Positions 12,601-55,061 of a DNA stretch of 64,000 bases are shown piece after piece. How positions within the stretch are numbered: position 1 is the stretch's first letter; each line of letters starts with the position of its first letter. The translations under genes and the position numbers were made by a program. This DNA comes from Isoetes taiwanensis. Lineage: Eukaryota; Streptophyta; Lycopodiopsida; Isoetales; Isoetaceae. Below the pieces are notes generated by a model. That model was not told the DNA's origin. It saw only the letters and a list, made by a program, of their open reading frames with translations, and ran no database searches. Location: assembly GCA_021234155.1 (NCBI GenBank), contig JAJEKV010000036.1:11421426-11485425 (forward strand), given 5' to 3'.

Positions 12601-13124
12601 ATTGATTCTCCGCGCTTCCAAAGGCGGATCAGATCACTCTTCTGTCATATCTTTGGAAAATTTCTGCTGATTCTTCAAATTTCATCCCGTTTGGAAATTT
12701 CAAGGACCTTACTCTGTTGGATAAAAGCAAAATAATTCCTCTTTCTGATAAGACTCCAATTTGGGACAGACTTTTCAAAGGTCCAAGCGCAATTGGCAAT
12801 CGTCCACAAATTAATCCTGCTACTGGTATTCCTTTTCCTTACGGGATCACGAGGCCTGCTAATGAAGTTGACTCTGATGAAAACTGGGATTTCATTCTTC
12901 AACAAGAGCGACCAAATATCTCGTCCAATCTCGCGACTGTTCATGGTATTTATCTCAACTCTTCTCTTAGACACTGCTGCCATTGTAAAAGTTAATAAAG
13001 TCGGTATCAGTATTGAAAAGCTATGGTCTTTCCTTCTTTCTCTTCAAAAAGGGCTCTCAATCAAGGCTGCTTATTGGCTTAATTATCCTTACATCATGAT
13101 TGAGTGTGGGAGCCAAAGGTCCAA

Positions 13125-13690
13125 TGTTGTTAAAAAACCCGTTTTTTATTTTTAAAGTACTTCTATAAAAATCCTCACGTATTTTAAAGGATTTTTATGA
13201 TTTGGTATGGCCAAAAAATAAAACATAAAAAAAATTGCACATTCTTTACACTGCTTTATTGGACATATTTGCTACTGTTAAAATGCACATTTTTACTACA
13301 AGTTATAAGACGTAGCATGCCAACAAGTAAATCAGAAGCTTATGCTACTATTAGAAACTATTAAGTTCAAGTACAAAGATATCATAGCTATTTTGCCATG
13401 CAACTCTTAAGAAAGTTCAGAAAAACATTATTATAGAGGTCAAGAAGTATAAGAATTTTATATATAAAGATAAATAAGTTCAAGAATATCATATATTTGG
13501 ATAAAAAAATCACAGTCTAAGGATTTTTAAGGATTTTTAAAGATTTTTAAGAATTTTTAAGGATTTTAAAGATTTTTAACGTATTTTATATAAAATACGT
13601 TTTTAAAGATTTTTTCAAAAATTTTAAAAATCTTCAAAAAATCTTAAAAAACGTTTTTTAAACGTACGGATTTTGACATACTTAACAACA
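13125..13690. mobile_element. MITE-like AT-rich element with short TIRs
   Basis: Absent from the same site in unit 2 (between 26551 and 26552, AAAGGT|CTGCC), so it is a real insertion. Ends carry a 9-bp inverted terminal repeat, TGTTGTTAA at 13125 and TTAACAACA at 13690. GGTC flanks both sides, but the target-site duplication is not clean. The right half is a tandem array of GGATTTTTAA-like units facing their inverse around ACGTATTTTATATAAAATACGT, so it can fold on itself. No coding capacity. Superfamily not assigned. Confidence 0.7.
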
Positions 13691-13814
13691 GGTCTGCCAA
13701 TCTTCTTCTGCATAGTGGTATTCTTGTCTTTGAGAATTTCCACTTATGCTTCATAAAGTGGAATCCCAAACTCTCAACTGCTGATCTTAACAATTTTTAT
13801 GTGGCCTCAACATC

Positions 13815-13843
13815 ATAAAATCATATTCTATTCTATTCTATTC
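13815..13843 (+). mobile_element. 29-bp insertion resembling only the LINE A 3' tail
   Basis: Compared with unit 2 (AACATC|TTTATTCGG), unit 1 carries 29 extra bases that start ATAAAATCAT and continue as ATTCT repeats. The last bases of the family A LINE 3' UTR read ATAAAAAATCATTCTTATTC (copy A2). The insert therefore looks like an extreme 5' truncation of that LINE, little more than its tail. Confidence 0.65.
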
Positions 13844-16299
13844 TTTATTCGGTCTGAATCCAATTTATTGGAATGAGGAATCAATCAGGAGCCTTTTAAC
13901 TCTATTGGAAATTATGTTTCTACTGTCCATGCTCCATACAAGCCTCCTATTGTTTATGTCCAAATTGACCTTTCCAAAGAAATTCCGACCTCTATTCCTT
14001 TCACAGATTGCTTTGGCCAGAAAACATCCTTGGATCTTAGATGGAATTACCTCCTACTTGCTCAACTTGTGATTCTAGGCATTTCTGGTATGCTGTCAGG
14101 AGAAAGAAACTTTAGACATTAACTCAGATGTGAATCATCCTGACATCAATAATGTACCTTCAAATTCCAAGAATTTGTCTATCTCAGAAAGGTCACAAGA
14201 GATTCAAGATTCTACATGGAGAAGGGTTAATGAGACTGCAAGAAGAATTGCTAAAAAAAAAAAAGTGGAAAAGGAGCATCAGAATATTGCAGGCTCAACC
14301 AAAAATGTAAATTTCAAAGACTATTTAAATATTACTGAAGACATGACTGAGTCAGAAAAATATAAATCCAAGGGAAAAGCTAAAGTCGGTATGGCTATTA
14401 CAAGTACTATGGATCTCCATTCCACTTTAACTTAGATTGCCACAGAATCGAATTTTGTGGCTAAAAAAAGGCTTAATCACAATTCCAGCTCAAGTTAGAA
14501 TCTGTCCGACTGGTACGAGAGATTCATTAACTAAGGAAATCCAAGCAAAGTATTCTCTGCAGAATAAAGTGACAGGAAAAAAGCAAAAGGAGTACATTGA
14601 AGATAAATCAATTGCTATCAAAAGCAATATCTTGAACAAAGATAGCTGAAACTTCCAAGAGGAATGCTTGTATTGGAAGTTATGAAAATGGCTCTTTGTC
14701 AGAGTTTGGAGGAAATTCTAATATTCAGCATACTATTCCAAGAGTTTCTCCTTAAAAAATTGCAGAGATAGCTCAGGGTTCTACGGAATCAGAAACAATC
14801 ATGGTGAACACATCTCCTGGAGAAAATAATAAAGGGAAATTTTTTTCAAATAATGAAGACAATGAGGAGGTAATTCTCTGCTCTAATCAATTTGCTGTTT
14901 TTATTAATTCACGTGTAGAGCAAATGGAATTACTGCACTAAGAGAATGAGGATTATGCTAAAGATCAACCTTATATATCTCAGTCTTCAAATTTACCTCC
15001 ATCAAATCTGTTAGAAAAGGAAACTGCTGTCCATAAAAACTTGAATTTCTTAGACCTTATTGATTTGTTTTCTCCAAACTCAACATTGCCTTATCATAAT
15101 CATCAGCCTACTATCTCAGACAAAATTGTCCATCAATTATCTTCCATTGATTTTCGTGGAAAGCTACACAACTCCCCTCTTATGGAAGATCTGGATAAAA
15201 ATGATTTGGAAAAAAACAGTCAGTATTGTCAGCAAGAAAACAGATTGGCAAAAAATTCTAATTAGGGTCTGAGCAGGCAAAATGAATATGACAGTGAATT
15301 TGCTCCAGAAACTTCTGAGTTTACAAGACAAAATATCATTGAAGATGAGAAGAACCCTTCCAGGCAAGTTCTTGATCCCATTAAAATTCCTTTGGATAAT
15401 AGAGATGAAATGAATGAATGTCATAATAACTCTATTATTAATATGACTGTTAATAAATTGTTTGAATTTATCCCTGGGGGTGTTTCTTCTGAGCATGAGG
15501 ACAATGACAAAGAAAATGCTTGTATAAATGAGAAAGATAATAATTGGGATCTTGAATACTACCTTAACACTTCTGTTACTGTTAATAAAGACAAACGAGA
15601 TCTCAATAAAGCTAAGGCCAATAAAAAAGCTTATATCTCTGCTCATATTAATGCTCCTGCCAATAATACCAGAAGCAAGCATAAAAAAGAAAGAAGGGGG
15701 AAAGCTAAAACAAAACACAATAGATCCTTATCTTTTATCATCCTTCTTGACTTCCTTGCCTTTTTTCATGAAGATTCTTTCATGGAATCTTAGGGGTATT
15801 AATGGAGTACTCAAAAGGAGAAGAGTCATCTCTCAGATCAAATCTTATAAGGGTGATATTATTCTCTTGCAAGAATTAAAATTACAGAAATTTGAATGTG
15901 CCAATTAGGGAGAGTGGATTATTCCTGGTAGTTCTTCAATATGGATGGAAGCTAATGGTACCTCGGGGGGTATTTGTATGATTTGGAAGGATCTACAAAC
16001 TAAGCTATTTTATAACACTCCAAATAGAATGTGGCAGTGTACTATTTTCAATCTTAATGATAAGCTTTTTGGCCTCATTAATATTTATGCCTCAACTAAT
16101 CCCAAAGAGAGAGAACTTTTATGGTCTGATATAAATAATTGGATGAAGAATCAGAATAACATTGATTGGATTGTAACAGATGACTTCAACAACACTCCAA
16201 CTTGGAATCAGTAATTGGAAAACAAAATGACTTGAAAGAACAAATTGGAGTAACTTTATTGATGATAACTCTTTGTTATTAATTAAGTACTAGAAACGT

Positions 16300-16320
16300 G
16301 TGCCCGGCGATGCCGGGCAT
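16300..16320 (-). repeat. Helitron 3'-terminal hairpin
   Basis: GCCCGGC and GCCGGGC arms (plus-strand TGCCCGGCGATGCCGGGCA), a few bases from the CTAG terminus. In Helitrons this hairpin serves as the rolling-circle replication terminator (family knowledge). Confidence 0.85.
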
Positions 16321-16605
16321 TAGTCGTGGACGTGCGGAATGGGTGACTAATATAGTTTGTGGGCGGAATAAAAAGGTTTAAATATAATCGTTTTTGTAGA
16401 TGTACGGACTACCAAGTGTGAAGATTTGGCGTTTAAGCATTAGTTATGGTAGGAATAACAAAAAGCATAGTGTGGAACACAATATGGGCGGATGTAATGG
16501 AGTATATAGTTTAGCATACTGGTTTAGAATTTGCCATGGTTTAGGCTATTGTGGATATATTTTTTAACTGTCATGTATTTTTTGCCTTAAATTTCTAACA
16601 TTCCA

Positions 16606-16640
16606 TGCAATGTGTGCCCAGCAATGCTGGGCATGAGTCA
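16606..16640 (-). repeat. Second Helitron-end-like hairpin inside the Helitron
   Basis: GTGTGCCCAGCAATGCTGGGCATGAGTC resembles the terminal GTGTGCCCGGCGATGCCGGGCATTAGTC, but without CTAG at the expected spot. It reads as a decayed, older 3' end that was bypassed or nested. Confidence 0.55.
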
Positions 16641-18443
16641 TAACTTATGAAATAGATCTATGGTCTTAGGTGTGGCAGGTTCAATAGAATGTTATACATA
16701 TGTGGATTGAATGGAATGCTAAAAGTAAGTGGTGCTCGACGCTAGTGTCCTTGAGCACTTGAAATGAGTGGATTTAATGCAATATGTCGGTGGAACAGAC
16801 TAAATATAATGGTCACTGAGCTTGATAGTAATTAAAGTGTTTTTAGAAACATGTCCCTTTTGCTTCCCTTGTAGAATCTCCCTTTTTATTCTTAATGTAA
16901 CATTTGAACTCCTTGGTTAATTGTTCCCGCATAGGACCTGTTGTCCCGCAACTCACCTGGATCTTAAGCATGTGAGAGGCTTTGCTATTCCTGCTAAACA
17001 ATGTTAGAGCCACAACAAAACCATCCTTTGTCTTGCAAGAACAACCTTATAGATGTTGATGTCTAGGTGTAGTTTGCATGATGAAGGTAGATGATTTAAA
17101 GGTTGTTCAAGAGTATGGATGTCTTAGGCTTGAATGCGCGGTCTATGGGATGTTTGAGCCTCCAATCACTCATGTTTATTCTTGTTGCTACCTTCAATGC
17201 TTCGTAAGACATAATGTATCGCATGATGGATATTCATGTGCATTGGTGAGGTTTACGATTGATAGCAAGTTGTCTTGAAGCAAACTTGTTTTTGAGCTTG
17301 TGAGAGGTGAGAAATAACATCCAAGTTTAGAGGTTTCTATAATAATTAATATGTGGATTTTTATTAATTCCAAAACAACATGAATAAATTAACATATTAA
17401 CATAACACCAACATGCGTGTTTCTTTCTGCAAAATATCAAATAACGCTAATGTATCTTATGTGGGTGGCTATATTGCATTGTTGTGAATAGTCTCACATG
17501 CTCTGAGCAGCATGGGTACTTCCATTAAACTTCCATATCAAAATACAATTTTATCTATGTTTAAACACGTTTGCAATATTGTGACAACCATTTTTTTCAA
17601 GGCAAGCGAAGTGTCAATAAATACAAATAGTCACATAATTATACAAATATGTGAAACATTTTCTAACCTGAATTACCTAGAATGCTCTATTGTAAAAATA
17701 GCAAATAAAGTACACAATCCATTCCAATTATATTCATATATGTCAATATAACATAAAAAAGACATACTATGTGAAACATACAGACGTCCTTTGAAAGTTA
17801 AGATGGCTCCACCATGTCCGCGGCAATGGAAAGAATGTAAGACATTCTAGCACCGGTAAATGGGGTCCCTATATCTCCTTTTATGCCATTCAAGTTAGTT
17901 CAGTCAAATAACACTTCGAATGGCATCCAAACATTGTTCTTTACTACCTCCCCATCCTTATCAATGTGCCTCAATAGTATGTCATTTAGAGTCCGCTTCT
18001 GCATTCAATCACTTACCTATGTGAAGGCATTTCATTCCAAGTAGCAAAAAAGTGTAGCGATTCTTGTGCTTGTAGACGTACATTTCTCCAATAGATCAAA
18101 ACAGGGAAGATGCTCCTAGTGGTGCATCTCTGCACCATATAATTTGTAAAGAACCAGCCCTGTCACATTAACCATCTGGTTGCACAGACATGGTGCACAT
18201 ATTCAGCTTCCCATAGTACATGTTGCATAGCAGCACATTTAAAGATACATAACCAATTTGTGACATTCCAGATAGCACGGGCTCTACTCCAGAGCAAATT
18301 TTGTCTACGCATTTTATGGAACACTTAATAGAAAGATACAAAATGCACATGAATATCCTTTATTAGACGTTCTTCAGATACTCAAAATGAGGGGAGTATA
18401 TAAAACAGATTGTGCTCTCATACTTGTTCTCACCTTGAGCTGA

Positions 18444-18620
18444 TGAATAAACTTGTTTTCAAAGAATGCACCAATCTTACTTTTTGCCTCCACTTCTAAA
18501 CCTATGTGTGCATCTCAAAATTTGACTTTATATGAACAAACTTGTTCTAAGAGAGTGTACCAATCTTACTTTTTGCCTCCGCTTCTAAACCTATGAGTGC
18601 ATCTCAAAATTTGACTACAT
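18444..18620. repeat. Tandem duplication inside the Helitron, about 88-bp period
   Basis: CACCAATCTTACTTTTTGCC / ACTTCTAAACCTATG / GCATCTCAAAATTTGACT occurs twice with few changes. A shorter duplication of GCTGCATGATCAGTTTG lies at about 18820-18910. One of ATAGTTATAAAACATTCCGC is at 21019-21065 and 21119-21166. Confidence 0.7.
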
Positions 18621-21356
18621 ATAAAACTAATGCCTCCAACACTAATTACTGTGCATGCATTCTACCAACCCGTATAAAGCCATAGATGTTCCATAAAGCC
18701 ATAAAGCCGTATTCCACCAACCCGTCTTTTGTTCAGTTCCGCAGAGGTTTTTGTTGTGGTTTCCCATCTGATGAATTTCCACAGGGTACCACATGGTCGT
18801 TTGAGTGCCGATTTCCTGGCTGCATGATCAGTTTGTTTGGTATTCAGGTGGTGTTTTGCTTTCCTAGCTGCATGATCAGTTTGTTTGGTATTCTGCTAGT
18901 GTTTTGCTTTGGTTCACTCGGTTCAGCAGATTTCTGTGGATTGCAACCTTTGTTGCTTGTTAGTCCGGCCTTCTTGCAAATCAGATTTTTATAACAGGCT
19001 TAGTGTCCCATGGTCCAGCTGAAAGTACTTAACCTCGTCAAAGAAAATACGAAAAACACTGTTTTGAAGCTCATACAGACTAACATTCTGAGTGTTGTGC
19101 ATGCTGCATGTCAGGTTGCATCAATTTACAAACATAGTGGCTTTGTCATCTGGTTACTAACTTGGCAGTTAGCCGTGCAATGGCACATGCAATAATACCA
19201 GGGGAATAATAGTTGTATCTATTAAAAATGACATAAGTTTTACAACCAATCATATCCAAGGAAATTGCATGAATTTGCATGCGTGCTAAACTTAGGGGCA
19301 CATATGTCTAAATTGAACTTACAGAATCTGGGAGTTGTTTACTGATATACTGTTGTGGATGGTCCTTCCTTTTTGAAAAGAAATAATATTTGGCACCTCT
19401 CCAAATCCGTGATTATAAAACCGGCTGCAAGGAAAAGCACAAAATTGAATTAGAAGGAAGAACAAAGCATGCACTGTTCATCATAAATTTCTCTACAATT
19501 GAGATAGGTGCAAGCAAAAATGCAACAACTTGCAAACTGCAACCTATTGATTAAGAACAACCTGCTAAGCAAAATGCAATTGGATGTATGAATGAGAAAT
19601 AACCCATAATGGAAGCATGAATGTTCACTTGATATTTGAGTGCATAAATGCATAACACCTTGTAAATATACTCTAGCAGCATAAATGCACTTCCACTAAA
19701 CAAAGCCAATTAAATAGAAGCATGAACATAACATAGTGACAGGACTGAAGACTATGATACTTCTGAACCCATGATCATGTTGTCTTCGCCTCATAAAATA
19801 CTATTTCTTAAATCTTTCTCGCTTTAGTTTTTACTACTTATAGCATTACAGCTTAAATAAGTAAATCAATTCATATGATGCACACGAACATGTTTGTGCA
19901 GTTAATAGTAGCAAATATAGAGGTTTATGTGAAGCTAGTGGTCAAAGAGGATAGATCATTATCAAGTATTCTAAAAGACCACCTTCCAACCTTCTTGCAC
20001 ATCTTCTCTTGCAAAATATAAACCAATGACAGTAAACACTCAGAACCAACAAATGAATCATAGACCCAATGCGGGCTGCTGGGCCAAATGAGCACCACAG
20101 CAGCTTTGAATAATCAAACACCAGACCTTGTTCGAGCAATGCACGCTCATAAACACTTGGTCTTGGTTTTTGGGCTGAAGTAGTTTGTACAGCAGTCTAT
20201 TTAACCAATCGAGCACCTATAGCAGCTTTGAATAATCAATTCCTAAGGAATGTGAGGGATCACGTGCTGCAAGAACAGAAGGTTACGTCGCTACATGATC
20301 GCCATGATGCCGCATGCATTAAGTGAATGTTCCTTCTTGACAGTGTTAATTCTGAAAGTTTGCAGGTTCTGAATAAGTTGACATGTTGGAGATATGAGCA
20401 ACAGGTACAATGATAGCTAAGACTCTGTAACCATTTGATACAGGAACCAAAATAAGGTCAGACCACAACCAGAACTCGTTGTTCCATGCAAGACCAACAA
20501 CGAAATCTGTGTGACTGCTTTTTTTGAACTTGGGCTTATGATATGAGAAAGCATGCGTGTTTTTAACTGTATGATATTTGAGAACAGATAATGCACAATG
20601 AGCATATTTCCTTCAAAACGCCATGGGTTAATAGTCACATCCTACACAGAGAAAAAAAGCAATGCATCTGTGCAAATAGTCATGCTTTCACTTTTCAATG
20701 TGACAACAAAAATATTCAAACACGGCAGAAAATAGAAATGGCAGGAAGTAAACAAAATAAATACCTGAATTCATCATCCGTTGGAAATGCGGACTTGTTG
20801 TAGTTGTTTGAAACTGGATGTAGATCACTGGACCCTAATGCAAGCCCTGTTCTCACATCAGTTTGCCCCCTATTGAAATGCAGATCGATTTGCACATTTT
20901 GATAAGAAAAAAACAAACTTCAATGCATGACAACAGATGAAATAGGAGGAGTATGTACCTAGTCTGCCGATGTTATACTGGGAATAATCTTGCCAGTCTC
21001 CATGTCCCTCCATGTCCCTGATAGTTATAAAACATTCCGCAGGAGCATAGCTTGCTGGTGCTGGATAAAACCTCTCTAAACTCACCATGCATCAGGCTCG
21101 TTGCTCACTGGTGCTTGTAATAGTTATAAAACATTCCGCAGGAGCATAACTTGCCGGTGCTGGATAAAACCATGCAATGGAAGTCGCTCGCTGGTTAATA
21201 TGAGCCAAAAATAAAGAAAAACTGAAGGATTAAATCCATGCATACCTGGCCGCTCAAGAAAGCATCGCCATCGCCATAGTTAGCTTCTGTGGTTTGAAGC
21301 TAGCTCCTGTGGTTTGAATTTGACATATACTATGAAAATATCCCGCAAGGGGAAAG

Positions 21357-21390
21357 GGAACGCCGCATGCGTCTGCACATGCGGCGTTCC
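21357..21390. repeat. 13-bp perfect inverted repeat near the Helitron 5' end
   Basis: GGAACGCCGCATG (21357-21369) and CATGCGGCGTTCC (21378-21390) pair perfectly around an 8-nt loop, about 40 bp inside the TC terminus. Confidence 0.85.
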
Positions 21391-21429
21391 GGCACAAATA
21401 TCAACGCCATCCCTTTTTAATAAAGAAGA

Positions 21430-22400
21430 TACCTGGTCTAATAAGAGAAAAGGGGATGCTAGAATTTATTGTGCTCTTGACAGGTTCTATTTAAACATTT
21501 CTTGATCTAATTTTTGGGACAATGCTTATGTTTCCAGTGATGAGTCCATAGCTATATCTGATCATCAACCTCAATTTCCCTGTACTTATCATCAAATCTC
21601 GGCTCTTAGATCTGGAAATATTCCCTATAAATTCAACTCTAGTATGCTCCAAAATAGTTCCTTTCGTGAGCAATTCAGAGAATTTTATCCCAATCTTCCC
21701 TAGAGTGACTGATCACATTTCTATGAAGAGCTTTTACTCTAATTTAAAATCCTCTAGATCTTGGATCAAGGAATGTATTAAGCAGCTTAATTCTGCAAAA
21801 AATACTGAGAAAAAGGTCTTATTCCAGCATGAGAGATATCAGAATGGCTCTGCAAGATGATCCCTTTAATTCTACTTTACATCTCCAAGAAGAGAACCTT
21901 AAAGGAAAATCAAACTCATTGAGGAGATTGAAGCCAAAGGTGTTGCCATTAGATGTAAAATTAAGTACGCTAATGATATGGGCTCAGGTTGTACCAAATT
22001 CTTTTTCAGAGTTGCTAAATCGAGATAAATTAAAAGTTCTATCAATGAAATTATTGATTATTCTGGAAATACCTTGAATTCCCTTATTGAAATCTCAAAT
22101 TTCTTTTATTCAAAGTATTCTGTGCTGTTCTCTGGGAACAATATTGCAGATGCTGCTGAAGCTAATCGTGCAAAAAAATATACTGATCTCATTGATTCAA
22201 TTATTCTTCATGATCATTGTAAAATGGATCTCTTTATGCCAAATTCCTACTTCAGATGAAGTTTTCTCCATTGTTAAGAGTTTTAAACATGGTAAATCTC
22301 CTGGCCCAGATGGTTTCCCCCCTGAATTTGCAAATAACTCCCAACGTATAATGCTTCATGTTTTCCAACGTAACTAATGCTTCTGAATATTTCTTACATA
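21430..22400 (+). mobile_element. L1-like LINE (family B), unit 1: end of endonuclease, start of RT
   Basis: Continues the LINE broken by the Helitron: TWSNKRKGDARI, then the endonuclease active-site ISDHQPQF (SDH at 21557-21565), a basic linker, and HGKSPGPDGFPPEF, the usual entry to plant L1 reverse transcriptase. Frameshifts and stops throughout. Homology stops soon after PPEF, so most of the RT, the zinc-binding domain and the poly(A) end are missing from both units. That points to an old deletion that joined the LINE to the neighbouring transposase fragment. Confidence 0.85.
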
Positions 22401-22489
22401 TAAGAAAAAGGACTAATTGAGATCACCACCCAATATAAAGTCTACCTAGTACACATTGTCATAATACACATTGTCATAATACACATTGG

Positions 22490-23144
22490 TTATCCGTAAT
22501 GTTGCTTAAAGTTCAATCCGACACGCAGGAGGTCTGGATAATTTTGGCCAAGAAACTGAACTCCATCAATTAAATGCTTGCATGTAATATGAAATGAGGG
22601 GCAGTCACAGTAATGAGACATCATTTGTTGAGTATACCTTATTCCAGTATAGGTCTCACTAGCCATCGATAGGGTCATGAGTTCTCTATCCTTCAAAACC
22701 ATGGTTGCAGAATCCTCTCCATATATTCTTAGTAACCTCTGGGTAGCAACAGAGGATTTCTTTTATGCACTTGGGTTGTATCTACCAAACTCAGCTACGA
22801 AATATAAACAATCAATGTAAGTATGACTACATATGAAATGATAGCGTCGGAATGGATTAATCTTACCAAGAGACATTCTCTCAAAGCAGTGCTCGAGAAG
22901 AGAGCCTGAAGCTGGGCTATGGCCATCAGGGTGGCCCATTATATGTGACAACAAAGTACATATGCATATAATTGGTCATTCGATCTAGAACATGGACTTT
23001 CAGGACCTGCCAATGCGACTCAACATGATTGGTCGTATCTACATTCGTGTGTTCAAATAGTCGCCCGAACCTCTAAATCAGGTAACTAGGGTTCCTTTTC
23101 CCTATACTCTTTATTTCAGTCATCAATCTGCTATGGATGCGATT
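22490..23144 (-). pseudogene. SWIM-domain MULE/FAR1-like transposase fragment, unit 1
   Basis: Minus-strand exon 23144-22867 encodes NRIHSRLMTEIKSIG ... RFGRLFEHTNVDTTNHVESH, which resembles the C-terminal core of Mutator-like transposases. A 72-bp GT-AG intron (22866-22795) follows, then LAEFGRYNPSA, a TAA, and MVLKDRELMTLSMASETYTG. A SWIM zinc finger CDCPSFHITCKH (CxC...CxH) follows at about 22575-22617. One frameshift lies in the first exon. Compared with unit 2 it has lost 376 bp of downstream coding sequence. The upstream catalytic DDE part was not recognised. Confidence 0.72.
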
Positions 23145-23720
23145 CTACAAAAAGGAATCAAAACATTGTTGTTACGTACGTGCTGTCTCTTTTATGTATC
23201 ACGACAACATGGTATGAAGAGTAAACTGTCTACTGAGCGTGTTTTTCTCTGAAATTAGTGCTTCAAAAACTGAAACAATTGTTTTACACCTAGTTTCTAA
23301 ATCTGTTGCTGTATTTAGCTACTTTACTCTATGTTATATTACCAGCCAGTAATTTTGACATATGGAAAACTGGTCTGATCAATGTTCTTTGAGAATACGA
23401 TGGAATAGTCCATTTGCTTCATTTTTGGCTTATTGTCTTTTTAACTCCTGTCATTCTTAAAGAAAGGCATTAGACATCTTTAAACATCTGCATTTACACA
23501 ACCCTTAATACATATGCTATCCGATTTTGCATCTCTTTCAATCAGACGTGTTGTGAAGTCTCTGCTGATGCACTCTGGTCGTTCTGCTTTAATCCTACCA
23601 TATAGCAAAGGTTTAAAATTGCTTATGCATTTTTCAATAGGTTACATAATATGCGAAGCAAATTAGCAGTCATAGCATGAGTGGCATATTGTTGTTTCGA
23701 TTTGCTTGGACAAAATGAAT
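23145..23720. other. Shared noncoding part of the duplicated unit
   Basis: Matches 33586-34162 of unit 2 almost base for base. No ORF or motif recognised. It may be an intron or upstream part of the transposase pseudogene. Confidence 0.5.
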
Positions 23721-25558
23721 AAGAATAAGAATAAGAATGATTTTTTATCGTCCACTGAGGCCAATCGGCCTATGGGACCCACAAGGAGCGCAGCAAACTT
23801 ATTACTGTCCGGGTTAAAAAACCCCCGCCCCGAAGGGTTTTCGAGGGAAAAACCGTGGCAGTAATAAGTGTGTGCACGAGGACATATCTGATCTCGCATG
23901 TCCATAACCTCCTGAAGGTATGATCCCAGCATCCGTACGGATGCTGTGCTCAATGTCACATGTAACGGCTGGCCAGGCCTGACCAACTCAGCATAGCGCG
24001 TCCGAATTTGATCATATGCTGGGCAACTTTGAAGGGTATGAGATTCATCCTCAATGACTCCCATTTGGCAGCATTGACAGAGCCTGTCCTCGCGTGGCTC
24101 ACCAATCCATCTGCCCGTCTCAATTCGAAGATGATGTGCCCCTGTGCGAATGGAGGCAATGAGTCTGCGCCTTTTCATGGGCAAGTGGGTACGCAGGTAG
24201 CATTGCGGGCCTCGTTCCAATGTGGGATTTATGTGGTGCTGATAGTGTGCTGTCTTGACATGTTCAAGGGCATTGGCATCCCAAAGCTTGCTGAGGAAGC
24301 AAGCGTCAAGATATTGCCTCAAGCTATGGCGATCTGCCTCTGTTTGCACATGTATGCACCTGTGCTCCTGCACATTCCATCTAGCCAACCATTGAGCTCT
24401 CTTTTCCCTCCAGCAGGCCTTCAGGCGCTGCGGCCCCATTGCCATGATATAGGCTAGTTTAGGGAGACGAGCATCGTCCATATTGACCACCTTCTGAAAA
24501 TAGATAATGTGGCGATCAAGGGCCGCCCTCTGAAGAGGCAAGAATCCTGTCTCCTGCAGTAGAATTTGATATGGGACTGTGGACTTCACCCCTAGTGCTC
24601 GTACTAAGAAGGCTTTCTGGACCTGCTCCAAGTCATTCCAAGTAGCAAGTGATACTACTGGGCCCCATACTTCCACCCCATATAAAAGGACAGGCTCTAC
24701 TAAGACCTTGAACAGGTGTGACTGATGGGCCCAATCATACAACTCTGCTCTATGACTATTGTTTTGCATTGCATATAGTGCCTTCCAGCCTGCCGTCACT
24801 CGTAGTTGTATGGATGTGTCCCAGTGCATAGTAGAAGGAAACTCCACTCCCAAATACTTGTATGTGGATGCAACTTCCACATTCTGGCCTTGGTAACTGA
24901 AGGAGGGGACCCTCGGCTGACGTGAAGATGATATGAAAACCACCTTAGTCTTGGCCAGGTTGACGCGCATATCAGTCGCTTGGCAGAATGTGTCCAGGGC
25001 ATCGAGATGTCGTTGCATGTCTGCTGGTGTGTAAGCTAGGAGGTCCACATCATCAGCATATATTAACTGTATGATGATCTGATTGAGAAGGTGAGCTCCA
25101 TCGCCCCCATTATCAGCAAGCCAGCTCTCCAATTGATCAATGTAAAGCCCAAACAATGTTGGGGAGAGAGGGCATCCCTGACGAACCCCGATACTACTAT
25201 CAAATGGTTGGCTTGTCTGCTGCAACCGACCCAAGCATCTTTCATATAGCCTGTACACTGCATTCTGCAAATCTACAGGAACCCCTAGTTGTTGCAGTCT
25301 TGCCCATAGTTTTTCCCGAGGCACAGTGTCAAACGCCTTCGCAAAATCCACAAAGCAACAATATAGATCCTGACGGCGGTTCCTACTGTCTTCAATCAGA
25401 GTTCGCAACGTGAAGATGTGGTCAATGGTTGAGTGCCGGGGTCTGAATCCTGCCTGCGTGAGGGCCCACACCTCTGTTGCCTCTGCCCAGCCCGTCAACT
25501 GCTGCTCGAGAATCCCAGCAAGCAATTTTGCAAATACCGAACTGACCATGATTGTTCG
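23721..25558 (-). mobile_element. Non-LTR retrotransposon, family A copy 2, young 5'-truncated insertion
   Basis: Unit 2 holds the empty site (GAAT|GTAAATGG at 34162/34163), so the insertion is exactly delimited. It has no target-site duplication; GTA at the 5' junction may be microhomology. It carries one uninterrupted minus-strand frame from the 5' truncation (MVSSVFAKLLAGILEQ) through FDTVPREKLWARLQQLGV, IGVRQGCPLSPTLFGLYID, IYADDVDLLAY and YKYLGVEF to the terminal zinc-finger-like CQCCQMGVIEDESHTLQSCP. The frame then reads through the 3' UTR. Compared with copy A1 there are no internal stops or frameshifts, consistent with recent insertion. The tail is a TTATTC repeat (23721-23738). Confidence 0.94.
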
Positions 25559-26405
25559 GTAAATGGATATTGTATACCTGCTCGACTTTCATGTACTTTG
25601 GTCTAGCATAGGAATCATCATTAATGAAAGCTATTAGCTATATGTCATGTGTTTTGTATTATGTGCATGTCCATTGGCATTGAAAAGCAAAGATGCAGTG
25701 GTTTCGCCCTGGAAAAATGGTTTTTTCTATGCATTACATGGCAAAACTATATGCACTTGAATACTGCATAATTGAATACAATTTATTTATGATATTAGAA
25801 TCCTAAGTAGGCATGGTTCCATGGGGCTCCCCATTGATTGATAATGGGTCTGATAAGCCTTGGCCTCTGGGAGGTTAAGGCAAAACTGGCAGATTGTATT
25901 CATGGTTTTTGTATGCATAGCGGATACATGTCATGCTGTCATAAAAGGGTCAAGTGCTCAACTCAGGAAATGTGATGCCAAAATTCTTGTATTTGATTAA
26001 CCAGCTTAAGCATTCGTTCATGCTTAATTTTACCCTGCAAGAGTACAACATACTACTGCCAACTATGATGCAGAGGGTTAATCATTAGATAAAAAGAATA
26101 ATTATGTAACACAACAAGGATAAAGAGATAATATGGTTGGTTCTCACGGCCCAGCACCAGTACAACCAGTACACTGAAGTCATTGCCTAGCCTCCCAGAG
26201 GCCTAGGCTTATCAGTCCATGGTCAAGCCATGGGGAGCACGTGAGAACCATGATTGGAGCTAGTAAACCAAAGCTTTAAATAGCCAATAAGTCTAGCAAT
26301 TCAGCTATTAAGTAGCCAACAAGTCTAGAAGCTCGGTTTGTTGGGCAAAAACATAAGGTCAGATATGAAGATCCTATAAATGAAGAATGCCAAATGGTTG
26401 AATCA
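25559..26405. other. Right part of duplicated unit 1, noncoding
   Basis: Matches 34163-35001. No gene seen. It contains a long imperfect inverted repeat, listed separately. Confidence 0.55.
25812..26258. repeat. Long imperfect inverted repeat, arms about 80 bp (unit 1 copy)
   Basis: Left arm: CATGGTTCCATGGGGCTCCCC ... CTGATAAGCCTTGGCCTCTG. It matches the reverse complement of the right arm (GCCTCCCAGAGGCCTAGGCT ... GGGGAGCACGTGAGAACC) at roughly 75-80%, separated by about 300 bp. An extra 10-bp pair GGTTCTCACG/CGTGAGAACC closes the right side. Possible foldback or MITE-like element. Unit 2 has it at 34413-34857, with a 7-bp loss in the left arm. Confidence 0.65.
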
Positions 26406-26914
26406 GCTGCCATTGTAAAAGTTAATAAAGTCGGTATCAGTATTGAAAAGCTATGGTCTTTCCTTCTTTCTCTTCAAAAAGGGCTCTCAATCAAGGCTGC
26501 TTATTGGCTTAATTATCCTTACATCATGATTGAGTGTGGGAGCCAAAGGTCTGCCAATCTTCTTCTGCATAGTGGTATTCTTGTCTTTGAGAATTTCCAC
26601 TTATGCTTCATAAAGTGGAATCCCAAACTCTCAACTGCTGATCTTAACAATTTTTATGTGGCCTCAACATCTTTATTCGGCCTGAATCCAATTTATTGGA
26701 ATGAGGAATCAATCAGGAGCCTTTTAACTCCATTGGAAATTATGTTTCTACTGTCCATGCTCCATACAAGCCTCCTATTGTTTATGTCCAAATTGACCTT
26801 TCCAAAGAAATTCCGACCTCTATTCCTTTCACAGATTGCTTTGGCCGGAAAACATCCTTGGATCTTAGATGGAATACTTTACCTCCTACTTGCTCAACTT
26901 GTGATTCTAGGCAA
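26406..26914 (+). mobile_element. L1-like LINE (family B), unit 2: ORF1 DUF4283-like part
   Basis: An open frame of about 180 codons from AAIVKVNKVGISIEKLWSFL through NLLLHSGILVFENFHLCFIK and FGLNPIYWNEESIRSLLTPL. A frameshift near 26737 moves the rest (YVQIDLSKEIP, CSTCDSR) to another frame. The N-terminus of ORF1 is absent because the duplication boundary lies within it. Interrupted at CTAGGCA by the 2.36-kb block. Confidence 0.85.
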
Positions 26915-27558
26915 ACCTTATAGTACATTCTCTCAAACCTTATAGTATTTTGCAAATCTTAATATACAGTATAAAAAACTTGTACATGCATACCCCACAA
27001 ACGAGGATCGCTATGTACGGTCCAGATCTTGGAATAAAGGGCAAATATGCCCATTCAACAGCTCTCGCTGCCCTACGTAACCCCCCGTGTGAATATGCAT
27101 CCAAACCAAAGGGGGTTTAAGGGGGATTTTTATTTAAATGTGTCAAATGCAATGGTTAATGTTAATAATGTTAATGGTTGATTGTTATATTAAAAAAATT
27201 TTTGGGCCCTTCGGGCCCTAACTAAGTCTAAAGCAGAAACAAAATGGGAAAATCTTCCACCTAACATCGAGAAATGAAGAAACATCCATTCAGCACTATT
27301 ACAAGTTCAGACACCATATATATAAATTCTTGCTCAACAAGCAATAGAATGTGAAAAAACATATCTCATAGAAATCTTCGCTGGAATAGGACTTTGAAGA
27401 AACCAAGGTAAATAATAATGATGCAGAACAACATTTCCACGCAACAATAAGCAACAATAAACAACTGTGTGTGTTGTGGTGGCACACTGACTCTATGGTA
27501 AAAGGTGCAGGTCGTTGTAGAAGCTTATCACTGTTAAGGATCACCTTTTCCATAGACT

Positions 27559-28500
27559 TCACCATTTCATAGGCTCATCAGCCATAGCTTTAGCAGCAAA
27601 CAAAAATCTTCTCATAATAAAATCTCTGGCAGCTGGATCATTGTATAACTCAGTAGGAATTTGTAAAGGATTATCTTCTTGCTGGTCCAAGCTTACTCTT
27701 TCATCCAAGCTTACTTTGCAAGTACTGGCTATGGTGTCATTCTGATCAAGCGTGTCAGCAGCATCAGAAAATGTTTCACTATCTTCAGCTGTGGATTCAA
27801 GTGCAATTAATCTCCTGGGTTGAATCTTGTCAGGCTCAACCTTTTTCAATTGAGCCGAGACTCAGGGAAACCTGCATGTCATGTTTGGGGCTAAAAACAG
27901 AGAGTCTATGGTGAGCTGGAGAAGGCATTGTTCTTCCAGGAGACATGCTAGGCATGGGTGTGGCTTCAAAGTATGTTTCCCTATTCTTATTTTTAGGTCT
28001 TCCAAGTGACTGCTCCCAGACAAATGGCACAGATCCTGGAATTCTAAGAGACCCCAAATTTGAATCAGAACTCATATAGAGGTCACTTCTTGGACTGGCC
28101 CATTCTAATACTTCTTCTTCATCATGCCTCACTAGATCTGGAGTATTCTCCAGACGAAATGAACCACCATGTGCACCATTTCTGCGTGTGTGAAGGGACC
28201 TTATAGGTGCATTGAAATGTAACCTTCCTTGGTCTTCATAAACAAAAATAAAACAGAGGACTTACATTAGGTAGAGAGGAAGACGTACTGATGGAGAGAT
28301 TTGGGACTGATTGCTCTGCTTCTTGCTGCATTTTTCTTCTGAGTGGGCCACTGAATGCTGGAGTACTCATTCCATCAATTGCCTTTCTTGCCTTAAAGCA
28401 GACTGTATTCTCTTCTAACGAATCGGACCCTGGACCCTGCTCATTTCGCCGGAAGGAGGAATTCCAGATCTTTTCTGTGAGCCATTCCCAAGCTCTTTAG
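27559..28500 (-). pseudogene. DUF688-family gene fragment, frameshifted
   Basis: Minus-strand blocks typical of plant DUF688 proteins: LHFNAPIRSLHTRR near the N-terminus, then GSLRIPGSVPFVWEQSLGRP, ATPMPSMSPGR and, near the C-terminus, DPAARDFIMRRFLFAAKAMA. One base-level frameshift separates SLGSIEK from KVEPDKIQPRRLIALEST at about 27840. Further upstream on the same strand, 28500-28268 (RKAIDGMSTPAFSGPLRRKM) looks like part of the same gene, ending at a possible GTAAGT donor. Function of the family is not established. It lies inside a transposed block, so it is a captured or retro-inserted piece, not a host locus. Confidence 0.72.
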
Positions 28501-28509
28501 TCAGAGCAA

Positions 28510-29059
28510 CACAATTGCTTGACTCTTCTAAGCAGTCTCACACCTGCTTACAATAATTTGGTCACTGCGTTATCTCAAGTGGGAAATCAGTGTTAGGCTT
28601 CTTCAAGAAGAAACAAGGATCCAGCAATCTGGCCACACTGCAGCCCAGCTTGCACGCTTCTCTGGAGTTCGTCCAAAGGACCCCAAGATCCACGATAACA
28701 GGAAGCCATCCCCAAAATGTGAGTACTGCAAAAGAAAGGGGCATGTTAAAGCCGGCTGCTGGAAGCTTGACTCTGATCAAGCAAGGGGAAAGATTGCTGG
28801 AGCTTCTGTTACCTCTGCTCAAGCGAATTGCAACATTGAAGAGAGATTCTGCCTGCCTCTGTTCCGCTTCAGCTTCTCAAAACGGGGCTCTGATTTTTAC
28901 ACCGAATTGCTGCTTCTTCTCAAACACAGCAACAAAACCTCTGTAACCTGGGCAGATTTGAATGAATCCCAACGACCCAACAGCCTCAAAGTTGTTATTG
29001 CCAATCATCCATATGCACTGTCAGACCCATCGATGCATTGCCATAACCGCAAACCCTAA
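28510..29059 (+). pseudogene. Copia-type gag fragment with CCHC zinc knuckle
   Basis: LLSSLTPAYNNLVTALS, then after a frame change WEISVRLLQEETRIQQSGH and the zinc knuckle CEYCKRKGHVKAGC (C-X2-C-X4-H-X4-C, starting at 28718). This is the standard order of the Copia gag polypeptide. The frame runs on to TAA 29057 with no protease or integrase seen. Fragment of an LTR retrotransposon carried in the composite insertion. Confidence 0.75.
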
Positions 29060-29272
29060 TATTAGGAACCCTAACTAAACTAAAAACACATGCAAACAAT
29101 AAAAGCCCCACAACCACACGATTTTCCCTCTTCTTTAAAATCAATGGCTAACAAATGGGTGCACTCTAGAAATACCTTTTAGTACGTCCACGTGAATATG
29201 CCCGTGAAATCATATGAAAACCATGCCAAAAAGCGTATAAAATCACAAAAAAAAACCCTGTTATAATGCTAC

Positions 29273-32200
29273 ATATTCTGGTATGCTAACTGTCAAAGAA
29301 ACTTTAAACATTAACTCAGATGTGAATCATCCTGACATCAATAATGTACCTTCAAATTGCAAGAATTTATCTATCTCAGAAAGGTCACAAGAGATTCAAG
29401 ATTCTACATGGAGAAGGGTTAATGAGACTGCAAGAAGAATTGCTAAAAAAAAAAAAGTGGAAAAGAAGCATCAGAATATTGCAGGCTCAACCAAAAATGT
29501 AAATTTCAAAGACTATTTAAATATTACTGAAGACATGACTGAGTCAGAAAAATATAAATCCAAGGGAAAAGCTAAAGTCGGTATGGCTATTACAAGTACT
29601 GTGGATCTCCATTCCACTTTAACTTAGATTGCCATAGAATCGAATTTTGTGGCTAAAAAAAGGCTTAATCACAATTCCAGCTCAAGTTAGAATCTGTCCG
29701 ACTGGATTCCAGCTAAAGGTACGAGAGATTCATTAACTAAGGAAATCCAAGCAAAGTATTCTCTGCAGAATAAAGTGACAGGAAAAAAGCAAAAGGAGTA
29801 CATTGAAGATAAATCAATTGCTATCAAAAGCAATATCTTGAACAAAGATAGCTGAAACTTCCAAGAGGAATGCTTGTATTGGAAGTTATGAAAATGGCTC
29901 TTTGTCAGAGTTTGGAGGAAATTCTAATATTCAGCATACTATTCCAAGAGTTTCTCCTTAAAAAATTACAGAGATAGCTCAGAGTTCTACGGAATCAGAA
30001 ACAATCATGGTGAACACATCTCCTGGAGAAAATAATAAAGGGAAAATTTCTTCAAATAATGAAGACAATGAGGAGGTAATTCTCTGCTCTAATCAATTTG
30101 CTATTTTTATTAATTCACGTGTAGAGCAAATGGAATTACTGCATTAAGAGAATGATGATTATGCTAAAGATCAACCTTATATATCTCAGTCTTCAAATTT
30201 ACCTCCATCAAATCTGTTAGAAAAGGAAACTGCTGTCCATAAAAACTTGAATTTCTTAGACCTTATTGATCTGTTTTCTCCAAACTCAACATTGCCTTAT
30301 CATAATCATCAGCCTACTATCTCAGACAAAATTGTCCATCAATTATCTTCCATTGATTTTCGTGGAAGGCTACAGAACTCCCCTTTTATGGAAGATATGG
30401 ATAAAAATGATTTGGAAAAAAACAGTCAGTATTGTCAGCAAGAAAACAGATTGGCAAAAAATTCTAATCAGGGTCTGAGCAGGCAAAATGAATATGACAG
30501 TGAATTTGCTCCAGAAACTTCTGAGTTTACAAGACAAAATATCATTGAAGATGAGAAGAACCCTTCCAGGCAAGTTCTTGATCCCATTAAAATTCCTTTG
30601 GATAATAGAGATGAAATTAATGAATGTCATAATAACTCTATTATTAATATGACTGTTAATAAATTGTTTGAATTTATCCCTGGGGGTGTTTCTTCTGAGC
30701 ATGAGGACAATGACAAAGAAAATGCTTGTATAAATGAGAAAGATAATAATTGGGATCTTGAATACTACCTTAACACTTCTGTTACTGTTAATAAAGACAA
30801 ACGAGATCTCAATAAAGCTAAGGCCAATAAAAAAGCTTATATCTCTGCACATATTAATGCTCCTGCCAATAATACCAGAAGCAAGCATAAAAAAGAAAGA
30901 AGGGGGAAAGCTAAAACAAAACACAGTAGATCCTTATCTTTTATCATCCTTCTTGACTTCCTTGCCTTTTTTCATAAAAATTCTTTCATGGAATCTTAGG
31001 GGTATTAATGGAGTACTCAAAAGGAGAAGAGTCATCTCTCAGATCAAATCTTATAAGGGTGATATTATTCTCTTGCAAGAATTAAAATTACAGAAATTTG
31101 AATGTGCCAATTAGGGAGAGTGGATTATTCCTGGTAGTTCTTCAATATGGATGGAAGCTAATGGTACCTCGGGGGGTATTTGTATGATTTGGAAGGATCT
31201 GCAAACTAAGCTATTTTATAACACTCCAAATAGAATGTGGCAGTGTACTATTTTCAATCTTAATGATAAGCTTTTTGGCCTCATTAATATTTATGCCTCA
31301 ACTAATCCCAAAGAGAGAGAACTTTTATGGTCTGATATAAATAATTGGATGAAGAATCAGAATAACATTGATTGGATTGTAATAGATGACTTCAACAACA
31401 CTCCAACTTGGAATCAGTAATTGGAAAACAAAATGACTTGAAAGAACAAATTGGAGTAACTTTATTGATGATAACTCTTTGTTATTGATTTCTTCCTCAT
31501 ATGCTAAGTATACCTGGTCTAATAAGAGAAAAGGGGATGCTAGAGTTTATTGTGCTCTTGACAGGTTCTATTTAAACATTTCTTGATCTAATTTTTGGGA
31601 CAATGCTTATGTTTCCAGTGATGAGTCCATAGCTATATCTGATCGTCAACCTCAATTTCCCTGTACTTATCATCAAATCTCGGCTCTTAGATCTGGAAAT
31701 ATTCCCTATAAATTCAACTCTAGTATGCTCCAAAATAGTTCCTTTCGTGAGCAATTCAGAGAATTTTATCCCAATCTCCCTAGAGTGACTGATCACATTT
31801 TTATGAAGAGCTTTTACTCTAATTTAAAATCCTCTAGATCTTGGATCAAGGAATGTATTAAGCAGCTTAATTCAGCAAAAAATACTGAGAAAAAGATCTT
31901 ATTCCAGCATGAGAGATATCAGAATGGCTCTGCAAGATGATCCCTTTAATTCTACTTTACATCTCCAAGAAGAGAACCTTAAAGAAAAATCAAACTCATT
32001 GAGGAGATTGAAGCCAAAGGTGTTGCCATTAGATGTAAAATTAAGTACACTAATGATATGGGCTCAGGTTGTACCAAATTCTTTTTCAGAGTTGCTAAAT
32101 CGAGATAAATTAAAAGTTCTATCAATGAAATTATTGATGATTCTGGAAATACCTTGAATTCCCCTATTGAAATCTCAAATTTCTTTTATTCAAAGTATTC

Positions 32201-32456
32201 TGTGCTGTTCTCTGGGAACAATATTGCAGATGCTGCTGAAGCTAATCGTGCAAAAAAATGTACTGATCTCATTGATTCAATTATTCTTCATGATCATTGT
32301 AAAATGGATCTCTTTATGCCAAATTCCTACTTCAGATGAAGTTTTCTCCATTGTTAAGAGTTTTAAACATGGTAAATCTCCTGGCCCAGATGGTTTCCCC
32401 CCTGAATTTGCAAATAACTCCCAACGTATAATGCTTCATGTTTTCCAACGTAACTA
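29273..32456 (+). mobile_element. L1-like LINE (family B), unit 2: rest of ORF1, endonuclease, start of RT
   Basis: ORF1 tail (SERSQEIQDSTWRRVNETAR ... NLNFLDLIDLFSPNS); a 250-codon frame is intact at 30247-30999. ORF2 follows with the same blocks as unit 1: KILSWNLRGINGVLKRRR, LLQELKL, GGICMIWK, LINIYAS, DDFNN. The ORF2 ATG of unit 1 is ATA here (30974). The endonuclease SDH is changed to SDR (CAT to CGT at 31644). The RT entry HGKSPGPDGFPPEF is at about 32366-32407. The stop after FECAN (31112) is shared with unit 1. Confidence 0.87.
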
Positions 32457-32609
32457 ATGCTTCTGAATATTTCTTACATATAAGAAAAAAGACTAATTGA
32501 GATCACCACCCAATATAAAGTCTACCTAGTACACATTGTCATAATACACATTGGTTATCCGTAATGCTGCTTAAAGTTCAATCCGACACGCGAAGATGTC
32601 CCAGCCCGT

Positions 32610-33585
32610 CTACCTGAGTAAGCGGGTGGATGCTCCCTTGGAACCGATGGCAAGATGCGTTGTGGATATAATCCCGCACGAGCATGTTGTTGTTGTTGCA
32701 TAGCTGCCACGCTCAACACGAGCAGATGGCCCTATGGCATCTCGAAAGTAGCGCATTTGTCTCCTAAGTTTCTCAACCTCCTCCTTATAATCAGAATGAA
32801 TAGTGGAATTGACAATTTGCAGCTCTTCATTTCGGTGTATGGATTCCGCTTCCAGCGTTGTTAACCATTCGGTGATCAGTCGAGCATAAACTACTCCATC
32901 TACTATTGGATCAGGAGGTGTTGCGATTGGATGGACATGAACTTCACGACCTGGTTGAAGGATATTAAGGAGGTCTGGATAATTTTGGCCAAGAAACTGA
33001 ACTCCATCAATTAAATGCTTGCATGTAATATGAAATGAGGGGCAGTCACAATAATGGGACATCATTTGTTGAGTATACCTTATTCCAGTATAAGTCTCAC
33101 TAGCCATCGATAGGGTCATGAGTTCTCTATCCTTCAAAACCATGGTTGCAGAATCCTCCCCATATATTCTTAGTAACCTCTAGGTAGCAACAGAGCATTT
33201 CTTTTATGCACTTGGGTTGTATCTACCAAACTCAGCTACGAAATATAAACAATCAATGTAAGTATGACTACATATGAAATGATAGCGTCGGAATGGATTA
33301 ATCTTACCAAGAGACATTCTCTCAAAGCAGTGCTCGAGAAGAGAGCCTGAAGCTGGGCTATGGCCATCAGGGTGGCCCATTATATGTGACAACAAAGTAC
33401 ATACGCATATAATTGGTCATTCGATCTAGAACATGGACTTTCAGGACCTGCCAATGCGACTCAACATGATTGGTCGTATCTACATTCGTGTGTTCAAATA
33501 GTCGCCCGAACCTCTAAATCAGGTAACTAGGGTTCCTTTTCCCTATACTCTTTATTTCAGTCATCAATCTGCTATGGATGCGATT
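32610..33585 (-). pseudogene. SWIM-domain MULE/FAR1-like transposase fragment, unit 2
   Basis: Longer copy of the unit 1 pseudogene. Exon 33585-33308 (RFGRLFEHTNVDTTNHVESH) is followed by a 72-bp GT-AG intron (33307-33236). The second exon carries LAEFGRYNPSA, TAA, a further TAG (CAG in unit 1), and MVLKDRELMTL. The SWIM finger CDCPSFHITCKH is at about 33018-33056. A 177-codon tail follows, including a likely coiled coil (WLTTLEAESIHRNEELQIVN ... EEVEKLRRQMRYF). The tail is continuous through the 376 bp missing from unit 1, which supports deletion there. Transposase catalytic core not found. Confidence 0.72.
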
Positions 33586-35001
33586 CTACAAAAAGGAATC
33601 AAAACATTGTTGTTACGTACGTGCTGTCTCTTTTATGTATCACGAGAACATGGTATGAAGAGTAAACTGTCTACTGAGCGTGTTTTTCTCTGAAATTAGT
33701 GCTTCAAAAACTGAAACAATTGTTTTACACCTAGTTTCTAAATCTGTTGCTGTATTTAGCTACTTTACTCTATGTTATCTTACCAGCCAGTAATTTTGAC
33801 ATATGGAAAACTGGCCTGATCAATGTTCTTTGAGAATATGATGGAATAGTCCATTTGCTTCATTTTTGGCTTATTGTCTTTTTAACTCCTGTCATTCTTA
33901 AAGAAAGGCATTAGACATCTTTAAACATCTGCATTTACACAACCCTTAATGCATATGCTATCCGATTTTGCATCTCTTTCAATCAGACGTTGTTGTGAAG
34001 TCTGTACTGATGCACTCTGGTCGTTCTGCTTTAATCCTACCATATAGCAAAGGTTTAAAATTGCTTATGCATTTTTCAATAGGTTACATAATATGCGAAG
34101 CAAATTAGCAGTCATAGCATGAGTGGCATATTGTTGTTTCGATTTGCTTGGACAAAATGAATGTAAATGGATATTGTATACCTGCTCGACTTTCATGTAC
34201 TTTGGTCTAGCATAGGAATCATCATTAATGAAAGCTATTAGCTATATGTCATGTGTTTTGTATTATGTGCATGTCCATTGGCATTGAAAAGCAAAGATGC
34301 AGTGGTTTCGCCCTGGAAAAATGGTTATTTCTATGCATTACATGGCAAAACTATATGCACTTGAATACTGCATAATTGAATACAATTTATTTCTGATATT
34401 AGAATCCTAAGTAGGCATGGTTCCATGGGGCTCCCCATTAATTGATAATGGGTCTGATAAGCCTTGGAGGTTAAGGCAAAACTGGCAGATTGTATTCATG
34501 GTTTTTGTATGCATAGCGGATACATGTCATGCTGTCATAAAAGGGTCAAATGCCCAACTCAGGAAATGTGATGCCAAAATTCTTGTATTTGATTAACCAG
34601 CTTAAGCATTCGTTCATGCTTAATTTTACCCTGCAAGAGTACAACATACTACTGCCAACTATGATGCAGAGGGTTAATCATTAGATAAAAAGAATAATTA
34701 TGTAACACAACAAGGATAAAGAGATAATATGGTTGGTTCTCACGGCCCAGCAGCAGTACAACCAGTACACTGAAGTCATTGCCTAGCCTCCCAGAGGCCT
34801 AGGCTTATCAGTCCATGGTCAAGCCATGGGGAGCACGTGAGAACCATGATTGGAGCTAGTAAACCAAAGCTTTAAGTAGCCAATAAGTCTAGCAATTCAG
34901 CTATTAAGTAGCCAACAAGTCTAGAAGCTCGGTCTGTTGGGCAAAAACATAAGGTCAGATATGAAGATCCTATAAATGAAGAATGCCAAATGGTTGAATC
35001 A
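33586..35001. other. Right part of duplicated unit 2, noncoding
   Basis: Near-identical to 23145-23720 plus 25559-26405. Includes the empty site for LINE A2 at 34162/34163 and the inverted repeat 34413-34857. Confidence 0.6.
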
Positions 35002-48259: not shown

Positions 48260-48398
48260 GCTCAGGTGCATAAAGAGTTCTGTTCCTAGGCACTTGCAGA
48301 GTTCTGTTCTTAGGGGCTTGCAGAGGTCTGTTCTTTGGGGCTTGCTTAGGCACTTGCAGAGTTCTGTTCTTTGGCGCTTGCTTAGGCACTAGGAGTTG
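48260..48398 (-). repeat. Minisatellite, 24-bp period with 12-bp expansions
   Basis: Four GCAGAGTTCTGTTC-led units; two are 24 bp and two are lengthened to 36 bp by a GCTTGCTTAGGC insertion. All lengths are multiples of 12, so the minus strand stays open and reads as PKNRTLQ-VPKQA repeats (48407-48177). It may be a coding repeat of a lost gene or simply a minisatellite. Confidence 0.75.
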
Positions 48399-48451
48399 TT
48401 GTGGCAAATCAAGGTAAGCAGTTTGGAGTTGGTGATCAAGGTAAGCCTAAC

Positions 48452-48467
48452 ATCTTTTTAACTTCTG
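48452..48467 (+). repeat. Target-site duplication, left copy
   Basis: ATCTTTTTAACTTCTG, identical to 49947-49962 on the other side of the LINE poly(A) tail. Confidence 0.93.
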
Positions 48468-54572: not shown

Positions 54573-55023
54573 TTCGGGTTTAAAAAAAAGGGCGAAATTT
54601 CAAATTGAAATTTCAGGAATGAAATCCACAAAGAAAATTAATTCCAATGCAAAAACAGGGAATATTTCCTGGAATATGCTTCGAGGTAAGCTACAGCAGT
54701 TGGATCTTGGTCATTTCACAGAGACCAATGCAAAACATCTTTTCTTCAATCAACTGCACTAAACAAACGATTTCCAAGGAGGATATATTCTACCTTGGAA
54801 GGTAGTGTAGCATACCGTGACCAGACTCACATGCAAACAGTCTGGTACGCCCTGTTATTCCTGAGTACAAACGAGCGAACCAGAGTATCTAAGCTAGCTC
54901 CGGCAAAAGATCCAACACTACAAAACAAGGATTCCGCGAGGAAAACTGGCAATGAGCACTTGTTTGATGGGCGACAAAGGTATGAAGCATGTGGAGAAAA
55001 ATACAAAAATAAGGAGGCAGATC
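54573..55023. other. Upstream region of the Gly/Pro-rich gene
   Basis: Presumed promoter. No ORF of note on the plus strand; the long minus-strand frame is the antisense of the repetitive gene. Confidence 0.5.
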
Positions 55024-55029: not shown

Positions 55030-55061
55030 ACCCGAGCCATCGGTTTGAGCAGGAACAAGCA

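Follow-up and report, generated by a model that had tools for sequence, protein, structure and literature searches.

Adjacent copies of one segment in Isoetes taiwanensis retain filled and empty sites for five insertions

The locus and its surroundings

The window analysed here, meaning the whole stretch of 64,000 nucleotides taken from contig JAJEKV010000036.1 of Isoetes taiwanensis (assembly GCA_021234155.1), contains several genes and transposable elements in addition to a duplicated segment (Table 1). A PPR protein is encoded on the minus strand by a single open frame of 802 amino acids (40433-42838; PPR_2, E = 3.3e-93), and a Methyltransf_29 match on the plus strand (1157-2014; E = 5.3e-92) is probably part of a split gene. 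Long Pro/Gly-rich open frames overlap on opposite strands at 55029-55799 (+) and 54827-55807 (-). The zf-RVT domain of another LINE-type element is found at 48386-49405 (+; E = 8.1e-14). It gave the only match in a Pfam scan that covered 21 of the 35 flank pieces, 13 of the 29 unit-2 pieces and this frame, while eight open-frame pieces searched at a looser threshold yielded one weak DUF7469 match (E = 0.032). The families PPR, Methyltransf_29, zf-RVT and DUF688 (Table 1) are in keeping with a land plant.

Self-BLAST and base-level alignment revealed that units 1 and 2 are direct, adjacent copies of one segment arranged head to tail, with 98.9% identity. A first-pass annotation of this DNA had proposed the same arrangement with an ancestral unit of about 6 kb, and the copies are confirmed, with a size nearer 6.2 kb (8,596 minus 2,362 bp). 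The units differ by 64 substitutions in 5,816 aligned bases (1.10%; K80 distance 0.0111), comprising 48 transitions and 16 transversions that are evenly spread at 3 to 8 per 500 bases. This count excludes the five large inserts, the 376-bp and 15-bp segments, base 14082 at the edge of the unit-2 block, the scrambled bases at 14095-14103 and 29288-29295, and the right-hand AGGTC (13690-13694). Smaller indels leave unit 1 short of 4, 14 and 1 bp, and unit 2 short of 1, 15 and 8 bp. There is no sign of recent gene conversion between the units: at 321 bp, their longest stretch without a difference falls short of the median of 407 bp in 2,000 uniform simulations, and the share of simulations reaching 321 bp was 0.886.

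A pair of inverted arms, 81% alike and about 440 bp from end to end, is located at 25812-25883 and 26183-26252, the latter copied at 34779-34848. The pair lies in the part common to both units and appears to be a foldback or MITE-like element that predates their split. The 8-bp indel between the units falls inside one of the arms.

The sequence reads ACACT/GCTGCC at the left flank, AATCA/GCTGCC at the unit junction and AATCA/GCTTGA at the right end, so that the overlap at the seam is exactly GCT and nothing longer. Overlaps of at least 3 bp occur at 6.0% of 200,000 random breakpoint pairs within the window. The microhomology through which the units had been said to be joined is therefore real, but it is weak evidence for any single pathway.

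The duplicated segment itself carries traces of older coding sequence, all of them scoring below the Pfam cut-offs. A DUF4283 match (16.4 bits; cut-off 27.2), which we take to represent a plant L1-type ORF1, is followed on the same strand by an Exo_endo_phos match (20.3 bits; cut-off 24.5), which is the order expected of a plant L1-type LINE. A SWIM match (16.1 bits; cut-off 19.6) is found in a 189-aa open frame; the SWIM-like part lies in sequence common to both units, and most of the frame is carried by a 376-bp segment of unit 2. The ancestral segment of ~6.2 kb may have consisted largely of a decayed L1-type LINE, with adjoining sequence that held a SWIM-like open frame.

Table 1. Features of the duplicated segment and related elements, with positions counted from the first letter of the window.
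Feature	Position	Strand	Remarks
Unit 1 of the tandem duplication	12976..26405	+	Four insertions and a 376-bp deletion
MITE-like insertion, 568 bp	13122..13689	.	AT-rich, 23% GC; AGGTC at 13117-13121 and 13690-13694
29-bp insertion	13813..13841	+	~9 nt resembling a LINE 3' end, plus TATTC repeats
Helitron, 5,140 bp	16290..21429	-	5'-TC...hairpin...CTAG-3', A^T insertion; unit 2 empty at 31510^31511
LINE, 1,838 bp	23721..25558	-	5'-truncated, with an uninterrupted reverse transcriptase frame; unit 2 empty at 34162^34163
GCT overlap where unit 1 meets unit 2	26406..26408	.	3-bp microhomology, no Ns (window has 0 N)
Unit 2 of the tandem duplication	26406..35001	+	One insertion
Weak DUF4283 match	26475..26735	+	Spans the sites of the AT-rich and 29-bp insertions of unit 1
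Unit-2 insertion, 2,362 bp	26914..29275	.	Empty site in unit 1 at ~14081^14083
DUF688 gene fragment	27559..28261	-	Two consecutive pieces in the unit-2 block: frame 27839-28261; second piece ~27559-27798, hand-placed
Weak Exo_endo_phos match (L1-type endonuclease)	30983..31093	+	Same strand as the DUF4283 match
15-bp segment found only in unit 2	31491..31505	+	Ends 5 bp away from where the Helitron inserted
376-bp segment found only in unit 2	32592..32967	.	Unit 1 site 22526^22527; read as a unit 1 deletion
189-aa open frame, weak SWIM zinc-finger match	32613..33179	-	Crosses the edge of the 376-bp segment
Related LINE 3' ends	10696-10735, 23717-23738, 59547-59556, ~56240-56290 (-)		Differing tails (TATTC, TTATTC, CCTT)

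Insertions and their empty sites

Five insertions distinguish the two units, and the alignment finds an empty site for each of them in the sister unit, as the first-pass annotation had stated. It had also held that the sister copy fixes the edges of all insertions to the base. This fails at the Helitron, where a 15-bp loss lies nearby, and at the unit-2 block, which has a scrambled edge. Its identifications of the Helitron, the LINE and the LINE tail are well supported, whereas the terms MITE-like and gene-capturing apply only loosely to the remaining two insertions. A sixth large difference, the 376-bp segment, was missing from it altogether.

Presence or absence alone between two copies indicates neither gain nor loss, and the differences need to be polarised because one of the six large ones is best read as a deletion. 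The 376 bp were most likely lost from unit 1, since the 189-aa open frame spans the edge of the segment and none of 2,000 shuffles gave a comparable open frame across that edge. For the AT-rich and 29-bp inserts, gain by unit 1 is the best reading, because the weak DUF4283 match is unbroken at their sites in unit 2.

The 5,140-bp insertion in unit 1 is well supported as a Helitron. Read on the minus strand from 21429 to 16290, it starts with TCTTCTTT... (extended as TCTTCTTTATT) and finishes with ...CACGTTTCTAG, giving the 5'-TC and CTRR-3' ends of a Helitron. Its 3' hairpin, TGCCCGGC-ATC-GCCGGGCA, has an 8-bp stem and is followed by CACGTTT and then CTAG, a distance of 7 nt. The target, TAAGTA^TACCTGG, is uninterrupted in unit 2, which places the insertion between A and T without a target-site duplication. 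Both strands of the window together contain one perfect 8-bp hairpin followed by CTRR-T, but the motif proves nothing alone because nine were found in 40 one-strand shuffles; the weight of the case is that the motif coincides with the edges that the sister copy defines. No RepHel protein was found among all 44 open frames of at least 45 aa in the element, so it is non-autonomous at most. One weak KdpA match in these frames (E = 0.0019) was taken as chance. A plus-strand Helitron was also considered and rejected: visual inspection of the BLAST edges (16284/21429) showed neither TC nor CTRR ends, and the minus strand fits fully.

A TC start, a hairpin, CTAG and insertion between A and T have been described for Helraiser/Helibat (PMC4778049). 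Compared with the canonical Helitron of that source, the present element is alike in its TC start, in a hairpin a few nucleotides before CTAG and in A/T insertion without a target-site duplication. It differs in its hairpin-CTAG gap of 7 nt (11 nt in Helraiser), in the RepHel protein not found here, and in carrying internally a decayed duplicate of its 3' end. This inner hairpin (16609-16639; 84% over 31 nt) lacks CTAG by eye, as a read-through model would predict.

The 1,838-bp LINE in unit 1 encodes a reverse transcriptase (RVT_1, E = 3.1e-30). The best of its ten solved-structure matches is an R2 protein (E = 8.4e-21), and the best LINE-1 ORF2 among them has an E-value of 5.2e-10. Its frame has no stops in 613 codons. 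The only long relative in the window, at 8848-10715, has four in-frame stops beside 595 counted gap-free codons (gapped codons were dropped). With dN 0.18 and dS 2.1 (near saturation) between the two, dN/dS is ~0.09. Because of its stop-free frame, the four stops in the relative and this low ratio, the inserted LINE looks young. The first-pass annotation had suggested comparing it, as LINE A2, with its family. This check is uninformative, as the sole long relative is 29% different with a dS of 2.1, and dating the insertion from that relative was rejected because the gap looks like one between separately active lineages.

The older LINE copy at 8848-10715 lies between direct repeats of 77 bp (8541-8616 and 10820-10894; 90% alike), which seem to hold a shorter repeated unit, and this copy may sit in a small tandem array. 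A comparison of the LINE protein with viral contigs gave four pattern matches, of which none was confirmed.

No target-site duplication accompanies the LINE in unit 1, and its empty site in unit 2 indicates neither duplication nor loss of target bases. Target-site duplications are usual for LINEs, although not universal. In the sense of the element, the target at the joint is ATTC, which resembles the tail, itself a simple repeat of the TATTC type in place of poly(A). Of the LINE 3' ends in the window, four were examined; all have GGACG-N-TAAAA in common, and the simple repeats that come after it are of TATTC or TTATTC type in three and of CCTT type in one. R2/RTE-like LINEs have simple-repeat tails, and the present element resembles them in its reverse transcriptase, 5' truncation, TATTC-type tail and best structure matches to R2 proteins. 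Unlike them, it is missing the 5' half with the endonuclease region.

The 29-bp insertion consists of ATAAAATC plus TATTC repeats. The pattern TAAAA..TC..(TATTC)n occurs twice in the window (two on the plus strand, none on the minus strand) and arose once in 200 both-strand shuffles; the second site is the 3' end of the LINE at 8848-10715. There is no direct repeat beyond TC at the edges of the insertion and no proper target-site duplication. From this pattern, it is well supported that the insertion would represent a LINE cut to ~9 nt plus its tail.

The remaining two insertions are less readily classified. The 568-bp insert is bordered by a 5-bp direct repeat, AGGTC, and has GTTGTTAA and TTAACAAC near its ends, forming an 8-bp inverted repeat with a 4-nt offset at the left end. 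Self-BLAST found no second copy within this window, and by its sequence the insert would be MITE-like at best. A 9-bp MULE-type duplication was considered for it and rejected, as only five of the nine positions agree. The 2,362-bp block in unit 2 contains two pieces of a DUF688 gene (E = 3.1e-11 and 1.6e-7, the second searched with X at stops), both of which score over the Pfam cut-off and cover profile positions 5-97 and 108-180. It has no recognised transposon ends; Helitron or inverted-repeat ends were absent both by eye and in sequence comparison. Its right edge and the empty site differ by one base, and 12-20 bp past this edge the flank is scrambled, with the units reading AACTGTCA and GTCAGGAGA. 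As a first guess, the block may be filler DNA introduced during break repair; alternatively, it may be an element with unfamiliar ends.

Origin of the two copies

The arrangement is probably a true tandem duplication that was followed by independent insertions, which is the best reading of the locus. As a genome change, the duplication is tidy but ordinary and of a known kind. For the maize loci p1/p2 and P1-wr, tandem duplications with end-joining joints, filler DNA and transposon insertions are reported (PMC3014980; PMC2686159). The maize loci and the present one are alike as plant tandem duplications with end joining and filler DNA (both putative here) and with differing transposon insertions near the copies, from which events can be ordered and dated. 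They differ in that the maize duplications carry a Myb gene and are known from many alleles, whereas the unit here is largely decayed transposon and is known from a single record. 'Rampant tandem duplications' have been reported for the fern Ceratopteris (PMC9477723). A literature search on dating insertions by sister copies returned nothing, which is not proof of absence.

Unequal exchange or end joining of homologues could instead have set two alleles in tandem, in which case both the insertions and the 1.1% divergence would be differences between alleles, possibly older than the duplication. An outcrossing plant can have alleles that differ by 1.1% and by several insertions or deletions, and the divergence is even along the unit, as this origin would have it; nothing in the sequence demands two alleles, however, and we regard such an origin as unlikely. 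The distinction bears on the ages of the insertions, which low divergence had been said to cap. They are capped by the split of the copies, but this split coincides with the duplication only for copies derived from a single chromosome; had two homologues been joined, it would be the older allelic split.

It is more doubtful still that the assembler set two haplotypes end to end. The divergence pattern is the same as that of haplotypes, and in a study of three vertebrate species, 4 to 16% of the sequence in earlier assemblies was reported to be falsely duplicated, mainly from divergent haplotypes (PMC9516828), but the gapless seam argues against such an artefact, as it has no Ns and a 3-bp join with no longer overlap. 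That some gains are really losses, for example that the unit-2 block is ancestral and was lost from unit 1, is very improbable: a loss is the best reading of the 376-bp difference and the scrambled bases by the block site differ between the units, but the block site in unit 1 is uninterrupted, with one frame reading a zinc-knuckle-like CSTCDSRHFWYA (read by hand, with a roughly one-in-three likelihood that it lies in frame fortuitously), and the ends of the Helitron and LINE are of insertion type.

Course of events and implications

Under a true tandem duplication, a ~6.2-kb segment would have been duplicated in one step, by end joining or by backward template switching, leaving the 3-bp overlap. 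The copies would then have evolved apart to their present difference of 1.1%. Unit 1 would have gained the small AT-rich element, the minimal LINE 3'-end insertion, the Helitron and the truncated LINE; its losses would comprise 376 bp and some shorter pieces. Unit 2 would have gained the 2.4-kb patch with its DUF688 gene fragment. The Helitron inserted by the canonical A^T route, as its empty site shows. Both LINE inserts may be attributed to target-primed reverse transcription that was primed at a tail-like target (ATTC and TC, respectively), probably with blunt joining at the other end.

This one locus offers the empty site of each of five insertions, which belong to different classes, and so gives a direct view of insertion chemistry: the Helitron is a textbook A^T case, and two LINE insertions lack proper target-site duplications. 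The 29-bp LINE scar is one that ordinary repeat annotation would likely miss. We tentatively suggest, as a possibility, that the LINE family in this window habitually inserts without target-site duplications, primes at targets that match its TATTC-type tail and can leave as little as ~9 nt plus a tail. If this were true, only a sister copy would make such scars visible, and their genome-wide number may be badly underestimated.
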